NCBI GenBank assembly: GCA_025055435.1 | Contig: JANWWN010000011.1 | Location: forward strand, 1-64,000 | DNA from: Cyclobacteriaceae bacterium | GTDB taxonomy: Bacteria > Bacteroidota > Bacteroidia > Cytophagales > Cyclobacteriaceae | DNA length: 64,000 bases | Direction: 5' to 3' | Shown: positions 134-54,491 of the stretch, piece by piece | Numbering within the stretch: position 1 is the first letter of the stretch | How the letters are laid out: each line of letters opens with the position of its first letter | Position numbers and translations under genes: made by a program | Notes under the pieces: model-generated | The model's input: only the letters and a program-made list of their open reading frames with translations | Told to the model about the DNA's origin: nothing | Databases searched by the model: none

Positions 134-1177
134 ATGACTAAGACCCAAAAAACCGTAGTGGGAGTAATTGCCCTTTTGGCCGTGGGCGCCTTTGCCTACT
201 TCATCGCCAGTGGAAAATTGAATTTTTCACCGGAAGATGCAGAAGGCTCCGGTATTACCGGTGTGAAAAAAGCAGAAAAGTATAGAAGTGGAAACACTGC
301 ATCGGTTGATTTGCAGGGAGCTGAGGTTCAACAACTGTTGCAGAACGACCAGTTTCAGCAGCTGATGAGTGACCGTAACTTCAGAGAATTGATGAAGTCA
401 CCAACTTTTACGGAGCTGGCCAAAAATCCCGAATTCCTTGAACTGGCACGCAGCGCTGAATTCATGGAGCTCATGAAAAATGATGCGTTTACTGAACTGG
501 CCAAGAATTCGTCTTTCCTGGATTTAGCCAAGAGCGCTGAATTTGCCGAACTGGCCAAGAACGCATCGTTCATGGACCTGATGAAAAGCAGTTCATTTAC
601 TGAGTTAGCTAAAAGCAGCCAGTTTGCTGACCTGATGAAATCAGCGGCATTCATGGAGGTTGCAAAAAATCCGGCATTTGATGACCTGGCCAAGAACCCG
701 GCCATGATGGACCTTGCTAAGCGCGGACAGTTTGCTGAGTTAGCAAAAAATCCTGATTTCGCTGAATTGGCCAAAAGCTCAAGTTTCCAGGAACTGGCTA
801 AAAATCCTGCCTTCACCGCTTTAGCTAAAAATGCCCAATTTATAGATCTGGCGAAAAATCCGGCGTTTGCCGATCTGGCTAAGAACGCAGCCTTTGCCGA
901 CTTAGCGAAGAATGCGCAGTTCATTGATCTGGCCAAAAATCCCGCTTTTGTTGACCTGGCCAAGAATGCTCAGTTTGCTGATTTGATGAAATCTTCTCAA
1001 TTCCTTGAACTGGCTAAATCGCCTGCCTTTGCTGATTTAGCTAAAAATGCCCAGTTTGCCGAACTGGCTAAAAATCCGGCCTTTGCCGACCTGATGAAAA
1101 ATGAAACCTTTACTGAACTGATGAAGTCTTCGCAGTTTGCCGATCTGGAAAAGATGGCAACAGCAGCTGATAACTAA
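134..1177 (+). CDS. Membrane-anchored protein of ~30 tandem nonapeptide repeats ([P/A/S]xFx[D/E]L[A/M]K[N/S])
   Basis: ATG start; N-terminal TM helix VVGVIALLAVGAFAYFIA; uninterrupted 9-aa repeat over ~270 aa. Confidence 0.9.
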   Translation: MTKTQKTVVGVIALLAVGAFAYFIASGKLNFSPEDAEGSGITGVKKAEKYRSGNTASVDLQGAEVQQLLQNDQFQQLMSDRNFRELMKSPTFTELAKNPEFLELARSAEFMELMKNDAFTELAKNSSFLDLAKSAEFAELAKNASFMDLMKSSSFTELAKSSQFADLMKSAAFMEVAKNPAFDDLAKNPAMMDLAKRGQFAELAKNPDFAELAKSSSFQELAKNPAFTALAKNAQFIDLAKNPAFADLAKNAAFADLAKNAQFIDLAKNPAFVDLAKNAQFADLMKSSQFLELAKSPAFADLAKNAQFAELAKNPAFADLMKNETFTELMKSSQFADLEKMATAADN

Positions 1178-1205: not shown

Positions 1206-1236
1206 AAGCCGTCATTATGAAAATGACGGCTTTTTG
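1206..1236 (+). terminator. Intrinsic terminator aagccgtcatt-atgaa-aatgacggctt + T-run
   Basis: Perfect 11-bp stem, 5-nt loop, followed by TTTGTTTT, 29 bp after the repeat-protein stop. Confidence 0.9.
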
Positions 1237-1269
1237 TTTTATTTTTCCTAACCAACCTATGTCTGAAGT

Positions 1270-4200
1270 ATGCGGATATATGCAATGATCTTCCTCTTGC
1301 TGCATAGCATTGCAGGCAAGGCACAACTAAACAAAATCGAAACCCAGGATCTACGGTTAATTACATATGACTTCGGCCACAAATACATTTTACCCCATGC
1401 CGGTCGATGCTTTCACAATGCCCTGAATTTTCACAAAAAGCTGTTCGATTATACTCCTTCAGAGAAAATAACCGTGCTTATCCAGGATTTTGGAGATTTT
1501 GGAAACGGAGGCGCAACGGCTGTACCGCGAAATGTAATTACCATGGGGCTGTCGCCTTTCAGCTATACGTTTGAAACCAGTCCGGCAGGCGAACGGGTAT
1601 TCAGTATGATGAACCACGAGTTGGTTCATGTAATAGCACTGGACAACAGCAGCAGTTCTGACCGATTTTTTCAGAAAATATTTTTCGGCAAAGTTGCCCC
1701 CACGAAAGAAAATCCGCTTTCGGGTTTTTACAGTTACCTGACAAGCCCGCGGAGGTACTCACCGCGCTGGTATCACGAAGGCATAGCTTCCTATGTTGAA
1801 ACATGGATGAGCGGAGGTGTAGGACTTGCCATGGGAAGTTATGATGAGATGGTTTTCCGTACCCGTGTTTTGGATAAGGCAAGGATTTATACAGCTCAGG
1901 GTTTAGAAGCCGAAGGCACGACAACCGACTTCCAAGGCAAAACCAATTCTTACTTGTATGGAACTCGCTTTATGGGTTATCTATCCTATCAGTATGGACC
2001 TGAAAAAATCATAGAATGGGTGAGCCGAAGAGATGGCAGCCGTAGGGCGTGGTCAGCCCAGTTTAAAAACGTTTTTGGTAAACCGCTTAATCAATCCTGG
2101 AATGAGTGGATTGATTTCGAAAAAAAATGGCAGCAGGAAAACATCCAGCGCATTAAAGAATATCCGGTAACACCGATGGAAGTTATATCCCATCAAACCA
2201 TTGGCTCGGTCTCGCTGCCACATTACGATAAAAAACGAAATGTAGTTTACATCGCTGTTAACTATCCCGGTCAGGTGCCCCATCTGGCCGCGTTGGATTT
2301 AAAAACCGGAAAGCTTAACCGGTTGCATGACATCAAAGGAGCTGCCTTGTTTTATGTATCATCACTTACATTTGATAAGCATGATAAATTATATTTCACA
2401 ACCGACAATGATGCCTGGCGTGATCTGATGTGCTACGATCTTCAAACCAAAAAAGTAACACGGCTTCAACGGGATTTCCGAACCGGAGACCTTGCATATA
2501 ATCAGAAAGATCAATCCATTTGGGGCATTAAACATCTAAACGGCTACTCCACAATCGTCCAAATACCGCAAACACCCGACAAGTCCGGTAGGCCCTACAG
2601 CGCGTGGCGTCAACGGTACACACTACCATACGGTCATGATATATTCGATATTGACATCTCTCCTGACGGCAAGCTGCTTAGTGCCGCCGTATCTGATTAT
2701 CGCGGCAATCAGTCCTTACTGTTATTCCGGCTTGACAGTCTTGAGGTTAACAAAGTTTCGATGGATACCATCTTCAATTTTGAAATTTCTTCACCCCAAA
2801 GCTTCCGATTCACGGATGATGGCCGTTATCTGATCGGCAGCTCCTATTATTCAGGCGTAAGCAATATTTACCGGGTTGATCTTCAAACTAAAGAGATTGT
2901 GCCGATGAGTAATGCCATTACGGGTTTGTTCAGGCCACTCCAGATTAATGATGAGAAATTACTGGCTTTTAATTTTACGGCCAATGGATTTCAACCCGTA
3001 TTTATTCCAAATCAGCCTGTAGAAGAAATCGGAACCATCGAGTTCCTTGGCAATAAGACGATTGAAAAACATCCCATACTGAAAACATGGGAATTACCCA
3101 TGGCCTCTTCAACCGATATAAACATTGAAGCACTTACCCGGGAACAAGGTCAGTACAGGCCGGGTAAACACATTGCATTAAATTCAGCCTATCCTATCAT
3201 TACGGGCTATAAAAATTTTATTGGAGCCGGATATACTTTCAACCTGGCCGACCCGCTTAACTTCAGGGAATTTGAGTTTACCGTATCCTATACTCCGCGA
3301 AGCTGGCAGAATAAACTGGCCAGCGAAGCCGACACAACGAATTTAATACTGGAAGATGATGAACGATTGCACTTATCGTTAACTGGAAAGATCGGGCGTT
3401 ATAATTTCAGTCTTCATCATAATCCGGCCAGTTTCTACGATTTATTTGGCCCGACACGGGTTTCACGCAGGGGAACGATGGGAAGACTTGAATACACCCG
3501 TCCTTTAATCTGGGATATGCCTCGAAAACTTGATCTGACAGTTGGTACAGGATTTTTTTATGGATTGCAGAAATCACCTTTCTTCCAGCAAATCGACACA
3601 CAGGAATTCACCGATAGCCTGTTCATTAACCTGGATGCTTCATTGGTGTACAGCAATTTACGCAGTTCGATAGGTGCCGTAGATCCGGAAAAAGGATTTC
3701 GCTGGACCTTCCGGACACTCTCGGCAACATCCAACGGAAAGTACTATGCCACACTAGTCGGGTCATGGGATGTAGGTTTTCAACTACCTGTTAATCACCT
3801 GTCGCTCTGGTTGCGGACTGCTGCCGGCAGTTCGCTGAATGATGCGTTTAATCCGTTTACCCGCTTTGGGTTTGCCGCATTTGGAAACAACATTATCGAT
3901 TATCAGGCTGCCCGCAGATACCGAAATATATTTTCGTTTCCAGGTGTTGGGTTTGATGCCAGTCGTTTCATCATAGCCAAAAGTTTCGCCAAAGGCATGG
4001 CCGAACTGGTGCTCCCCCCGATTCGCTTCCGCCATGCAGGAACTTTGAATTTTTATTCAAACTGGATGCAGTTTTCTCTCTTTTCTTCCTTACTGACTAC
4101 CTCCGAACCTGAATTTGGAAAAAGTCGGTTTATTAATGCCGGCGCTCAACTGGATATTAAGCTGGTGATTTTTTCTTTACTTGAATCCACTTTTTCAGTG

Positions 4201-45126: not shown

Positions 45127-45233
45127 AAGCGAAAGCTTCAAGCTTCTGGCTGTACGAGATGGGTAAAAAAAGCTACAAGCTGCAGGCTACAAGCTACAGG
45201 CAGTAAGTTAAAGGCTGCGAGTTACGAGCCTGG
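45127..45233. repeat. Degenerate 7-bp tandem repeats, 5 + 9 units separated by 9 nt
   Basis: aagcgaa agcttca agcttct ggctgta cgagatg / agctaca agctgca ggctaca agctaca ggcagta agttaaa ggctgcg agttacg agcctgg. Confidence 0.8.
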
Positions 45234-54442: not shown

Positions 54443-54491
54443 AGCTACAGGCTACAGGCTACAGGCTACAGGCTACAGGTTGCAGGCTACC
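54443..54491. repeat. 7-bp tandem repeat (GGCTACA)n, 7 units, near-perfect
   Basis: agctaca ggctaca ggctaca ggctaca ggctaca ggttgca ggctacc. Confidence 0.93.

Follow-up and report, generated by a model that had tools for sequence, protein, structure and literature searches.

A membrane-anchored array of thirty nonapeptides, predicted to form an alpha-solenoid, is encoded with a peptidase-like partner and a PrsW-family protease in Cyclobacteriaceae

Regulated proteolysis through SigW, RsiW and PrsW has been described in Bacillus subtilis, and what PrsW and RsiW do in Bacillus is established; carrying these roles over to the cluster described here is a step that we infer. In Bacteroidota, Dma carries anti-sigma logic from the cytosol to the outer membrane within one protein, whose domains run from the outer membrane into the cytosol. 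To our knowledge, the sensing of outer-membrane damage in Bacteroidota-type bacteria is poorly known. A second point of comparison is structural. The STI1/DP domains of Sti1/Hop and the ubiquilins (PF17830, PF23195) are compact domains of about six helices in cytosolic co-chaperones. Published STI1 structures have six short helices joined by turns of roughly 90° at conserved prolines, and a Met-rich groove that binds transmembrane segments (PMC13083928).

We analyzed a 64,000-nucleotide stretch of a Cyclobacteriaceae genome (contig JANWWN010000011.1), called the window throughout. Its first complete gene encodes a protein built largely of nine-residue repeats, followed by a large partner protein and a PrsW-family protease (Table 1). 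The window begins at the contig start, which truncates a gene whose end lies at base 60, so the local upstream context is incomplete.

Table 1. Positions of the features discussed, in window coordinates.
Feature	Position	Strand	Description
Repeat protein gene	134..1177	+	347 aa, with one transmembrane helix (TM) after a short N-terminus, then a juxtamembrane segment, the array of 30 nonapeptides and a short C-terminus
Single transmembrane helix, residues 7-25	152..208	+	Hydropathy; low-confidence helix 11-26 in AlphaFold2 model
Juxtamembrane motif GSGITGVKKAEKY, residues 38-50	245..283	+	Counterpart of GTIG/GTMG..KAE(K/R)Y in relatives; putative PrsW-related site
Array, exactly 30 nine-residue units, residues 72-341	347..1156	+	Predicted two-turn helices with 2-residue turns
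Intrinsic-terminator-like hairpin and T tail	1206..1242	+	Between repeat gene and partner gene
Partner protein, 1002 aa	1270..4278	+	N-terminal peptidase-MA-like domain, TolB-like propeller (~300-580), C-terminal antiparallel strands (~627-1001)
Partner HELVH	1615-1629	+	Motif of peptidase-MA-like domain
Partner WYHEG	1768-1782	+	Motif of peptidase-MA-like domain
PrsW-family intramembrane protease, 233 aa	4289..4990	+	PF13367, 5e-38

The repeat gene has an ATG start and an unbroken reading frame. Its single membrane segment (mean hydropathy 2.4) is followed by 46 juxtamembrane residues (26-71) and then by the array, whose units run in register with zero insertions between them and leave six residues at the C-terminus; the original prediction of one membrane segment and some 270 residues of uninterrupted 9-mers was thus confirmed. 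The unit consensus is [P/A/S]xFx[D/E]L[A/M]K[N/S]. Position 3 is Phe in 29 of 30 units (Met once) and position 6 is Leu in 29 (Val once), while Lys at position 8 and Glu or Asp at position 5 each occur in 28. Position 7 is Ala or Met except in the final unit, and positions 9 and 1 are mostly Asn/Ser and Pro/Ala/Ser, respectively. At the DNA level the regularity fades: Leu-6 is spelled CTG 18 times, TTA 6, TTG 3, CTC once and CTT once, Ala-7 is spelled GCC 8, GCT 8, GCA 3 and GCG 2 times, and Tandem Repeats Finder picks up fragments only, at about 60-77% match. A separate class of DNA repeat, (GCTACAG)n tandem heptamers, occupies intergenic positions 54444-54490 and 45172-45201, with scattered related copies in both gaps.

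Six further genomes of the genus have an orthologue of the repeat gene. Each of the six full-length copies in the genus (the window, G014, G003, G004, G015 and G007) carries exactly 30 in-register units, as do G119 and G167, two species of another genus, and the first of two copies in G022; copy number has therefore been stable for a long time. Exceptions exist, since g64 has about 12 units and G022 copy 2 about 36. Units match best to the unit of the same index in 18 of 29 cases between the window and G014 and in 28 of 29 between G014 and G003. For the window and G014 the array dN is 0.149 with dS saturated, and closer pairs give dN/dS of 0.012 to 0.13. Because 30 in-register units are shared across genera and synonymous sites are saturated, the array is old and under protein-level selection, in line with the earlier argument from synonymous codons against slippage. 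The perfect period and the patchy distribution (7 of 17 genomes of the genus and, in two further families, 7 of 15 and 18 of 97) could suggest a recently expanded low-complexity repeat with no specific function. That reading is already contradicted by the conserved unit number, the orthology of units by index, the dN and dS values, and the co-inheritance of the array gene with the partner gene, and we consider it very improbable. The patchy distribution does mark the module as accessory.

An AlphaFold2 model of the repeat protein, built from 21 aligned sequences, reaches a pLDDT of about 90 over the array, with low confidence for the TM and linker; such confidence is to be read with caution, as AlphaFold can be over-confident for perfect repeats, and the remaining four models are lower (mean pLDDT 63-71). 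The model consists of 31 consecutive two-turn helices, most of them seven residues long, and the two-residue turns between them fall at the N/S-P steps. Two folds had been offered at the outset, a continuous helix with Phe residues on opposite faces and a tight solenoid in which N/S-P steps cap very short helices. The first is absent from the prediction, and the second is what AlphaFold2 gives. We therefore describe the array as a predicted alpha-solenoid with one helix per unit. A Foldseek search of the model against the PDB, which the original prediction had proposed as a check, returned nothing significant (best E 0.9, TM-score to the query no higher than about 0.13) and so no similar solved structure.

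Named families also fail to account for the window protein, as originally stated, whether Pfam, NCBIfam or PDB profiles are compared. No Pfam family scores above its cut-off, and the sole NCBIfam match that does, TIGR04519 (22.9 against 20.6), was rejected, as no stretch passes alone. The proposed analogy to STI1 fared better in relatives than in the window. PF17830 (STI1-HOP_DP, cut-off 29.1 bits) is exceeded in four divergent relatives, G022 copy 1 (35.1), G982 (44.7), G756 (33.5) and G821 (68.2), and the UBQLN1 profile (cut-off 27) in G119, G821 and G982, in no case through a single stretch that passes alone. The window protein scores 23.4 with UBQLN1 and is absent from the listed PF17830 matches. 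As controls we permuted the columns of the array in eight versions, leaving composition and period unchanged; neither PF17830 nor UBQLN1 matched any of the eight, and several matched other random families above cut-off. Because shuffled arrays yield this kind of stray match, matches between relatives and families such as Plasmodium HRP, ribosomal L4, Med31 and OSCP were set aside as repeat artefacts. Matches in G026 and G055 and on the minus strand were also dropped, being compositional, off-frame or in unrelated proteins.

The array shares with STI1/DP domains very short helices, tight turns at N/S/D-P steps, and amphipathic faces rich in Phe, Leu and Met, and the profile matches recur in relatives. 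It differs in its 30 units of equal length, its membrane anchor, its predicted periplasmic location and the lack of a domain-level match in the window protein. The pattern thus appears truly STI1-like, and homology by common descent is putative. A rival reading is an STI1-like periplasmic holdase, in which the array would form a long groove lined with Met, Phe and Leu that takes up exposed hydrophobic segments, for example of unfolded outer-membrane proteins, and PrsW and the partner protease would serve quality control. The above-threshold matches in relatives (none among shuffled arrays), the yeast STI1 DP domain (2llw) as the best PDB profile match, and the short helices, proline turns and Met-rich groove of STI1 (PMC13083928) all speak for it. 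Weighing on the other side, that PDB match has an E-value of 0.23, no single stretch passes alone, the window protein stays below cut-off, Foldseek against the PDB found no STI1 structure, and the groove geometry is hypothetical. We consider the holdase unlikely.

The gene next to the array offers a different view of its function. The repeat ORF stops after the array, and the predicted barrel is encoded by the partner gene. In an alignment of 16 partner sequences, HELVH and WxHEG are invariant, giving the HExxH and downstream Glu of a gluzincin; PF13485 matches weakly (E 0.0026) in one relative. A model of moderate confidence (mean pLDDT 68) shows an alpha/beta N-terminal domain, a propeller and long C-terminal antiparallel strands, which we read as a predicted outer-membrane barrel. 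The nearest solved propeller is that of TolB (TM-score about 0.5 of the target), although the overall architecture differs. The PrsW-family protein combines its PF13367 match with E82, E83 and K86 (EExxK, residues 82-86), E121, N122, H145 and H181, invariant in 14 proteins.

The order repeat protein, ~1000-residue partner, PrsW is kept in g1, g7, g64 and g103 of the family and in families f8 and f9 of the order, where the f8 sample consists of draft genomes of 1.0-1.6 Mb, some incomplete, and one f9 locus (L089) has just two of the genes, the repeat gene and PrsW. Among genomes of the genus, all seven that carry the repeat gene have a partner orthologue (71-77% identity), and the ten that lack it have none. 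A scan of a genome collection returned a single match, the record of G022 (a MAG, Flammeovirgaceae bacterium), and a search of a limited literature collection found no description of the module. The original prediction, right about the repeat itself, had missed this context and the sigma-factor link outside the class described below. A hairpin and T tail separate the repeat gene from the partner gene in 12 of 12 folded loci, with differing sequences. The two proteins therefore need not be made in equal amounts, and the repeat protein may be produced in excess over the partner.

Several irregularities accompany the trio. The partner gene of G309 (L095:9818-13032) is split into two ORFs of 808 and 207 aa, a sequencing error or a pseudogene. 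Two f8 arrays (L091:8304-9470 and L093:8532-9710) are broken by a hydrophobic stretch resembling FMITLGVFVTAPVIASTFF that could be a second membrane segment and that L092 and L095 lack. In f114/f96, distant partner homologues are preceded by genes for short secreted proteins of near-identical SQLEELGSRYGF(L/V)R-type repeats of ~15-16 residues (L154:5762-6238, L156:7468-8319, L157:5520-6089, L159:5515-6000); the partner family therefore seems to travel with several kinds of repeat protein.

A fixed number of units next to a TolB-like propeller raises the possibility of a periplasmic tether or ruler of fixed length, spanning from the inner membrane to the outer-membrane partner with no signalling, much as TolA bridges to TolB/Pal. 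Exactly 30 units in the six genus copies, G119, G167 and G022 copy 1, with saturated synonymous sites, would fit such a ruler, as would the propeller itself and the lack of a linked sigma factor in the window's lineage. A ruler sits poorly with the different unit numbers of g64 and G022 copy 2, with the Gly/Ser-rich linker that precedes f8 arrays, and with the other repeat types found in relatives of other classes; we judge it improbable.

In those relatives the module is linked to sigma factors. Among 398 genomes sampled across the phylum, the partner profile matches in 30, mostly of other classes. We read twenty partner neighbourhoods. In the close group, the upstream sequence is readable at 11 loci from other classes (L141-L149, L151 and L160; L150 is cut by its contig end). 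All 11 have an ECF sigma gene directly upstream together with an anti-sigma, as a gene or as a domain, and partner-switch genes (STAS and HATPase, domains checked for L143) often precede them. A PrsW gene follows downstream in nine of the ten loci where this is visible and is missing from L148. In L141, L143, L145 and L160, anti-sigma domain, TM and nonapeptide array form one protein; a fifth fusion, in L148, joins the anti-sigma to another repeat type. L142 and L144 encode the anti-sigma and nonapeptide protein separately, and L146, L147, L149, L150 and L151 retain the TM and the juxtamembrane motif but continue into other sequence or repeats. In G022 copy 2 an anti-sigma-like N-terminus, matching sigma-linked proteins in g58, is fused to TM and array, and an ECF sigma gene overlaps it by 4 bp.

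In the window protein, by comparison, about six residues precede the TM, and the cytosolic sigma-binding domain of a membrane anti-sigma factor is absent; such a domain before the TM is present in relatives only. No linked sigma/anti-sigma pair was found beside orthologues in the window's lineage, and a search of the rest of the genome for an anti-sigma of the module type gave generic weak matches only. In a partner tree with midpoint root and partly supported deeper branches, the window's class forms one clade (100/100) among sigma-linked lineages; the simplest reading is therefore that the linked sigma arm was probably lost in the window's clade. Some genus members have other genes in the upstream position. 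A protein with a TIR-like N-terminus and TPRs is encoded directly upstream of the repeat gene in three loci (L022:8522-10639, L024:8870-10990, L025:6434-8551), and further TIR/DUF4062 and large ATPase-like genes lie nearby and are not conserved outside the genus. The TIR/TPR gene was considered as a system part and rejected, since it too is not conserved outside the genus; the cut-off upstream gene of the window has no match to it.

Separate anti-sigmas and repeat proteins share a feature just outside the membrane. The pattern G[ST][IMLA], with variants GTIG, GTMG and GSAI, lies 10-16 residues past the TM in both. Of 106 single-TM ORFs in the retrieved loci, 22 carry it at that distance, each of them a module protein, and nine unrelated anti-sigmas all lack it. 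The anti-sigma alignment has three invariant columns, one of which is this glycine. As written the pattern misses the GSGI of the window's genus, which was placed by alignment. The simplest explanation would be that the motif is a common PrsW-related site.

Gene order, intact catalytic motifs, the membrane anchor, conservation of 30 units and the shared motif are the observed base of our proposal. From them we infer a proteolytic envelope-sensing system. The 30-nonapeptide solenoid would project from the inner membrane and engage the neighbouring outer-membrane partner (metalloprotease-like domain, TolB-like propeller and barrel), exposed hydrophobic clients, or both. A changed contact would lead the partner protease and then PrsW to cut the repeat protein near GSGI, just outside the membrane. 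Outside the window's class, elsewhere in the phylum, the cleavage module would control an ECF sigma factor, because the operon's anti-sigma either bears the juxtamembrane motif as well or is fused to the array. In the window's lineage the output would be either structural or in trans, because no sigma/anti-sigma pair is linked there. Counted against this proposal are the near-absent cytosolic part, the lack of a linked sigma, the patchy distribution and the terminator-like hairpin. We give an even chance to the repeat protein being the inner-membrane-anchored periplasmic partner in a three-gene proteolytic envelope module of this kind, with solenoid-partner contact, cleavage and, in relatives, sigma control. 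More tentatively, and at somewhat less than even chances, the array may represent a new alpha-solenoid class, with a nine-residue unit, a single two-turn helix and no solved relative, serving as sensor ectodomain of an undescribed ECF-sigma/PrsW/outer-membrane-protease envelope system across several classes of the phylum, with a juxtamembrane cleavage motif common to sensor and anti-sigma.

A cluster that joins an outer-membrane protease-like barrel, PrsW, an anchored solenoid and often an ECF sigma/anti-sigma pair lays out a specific cascade that can be tested gene by gene. The nine-residue unit would rank among the shortest alpha-solenoid repeats, useful to structural biology and repeat-protein design, and the array offers a bacterial, periplasmic comparison for STI1-type grooves.

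Set against described systems, the module resembles SigW/RsiW/PrsW in that a PrsW-family protease, its residues intact, is encoded with an ECF sigma/anti-sigma pair in relatives. It differs in its Gram-negative envelope, its outer-membrane metalloprotease-like partner and its solenoid ectodomain and, in the window's lineage, in the absence of the sigma arm. As in TolA/TolB/Pal, a helical protein anchored in the inner membrane is encoded alongside a protein with a TolB-like propeller, but the partner has a peptidase-like domain and a barrel, and the repeat protein has no sequence match to TolA. With Dma it would share an anti-sigma logic reaching from the cytosol to the outer membrane; where Dma does so in one protein, the module places its inner-membrane solenoid and predicted outer-membrane barrel on separate genes.
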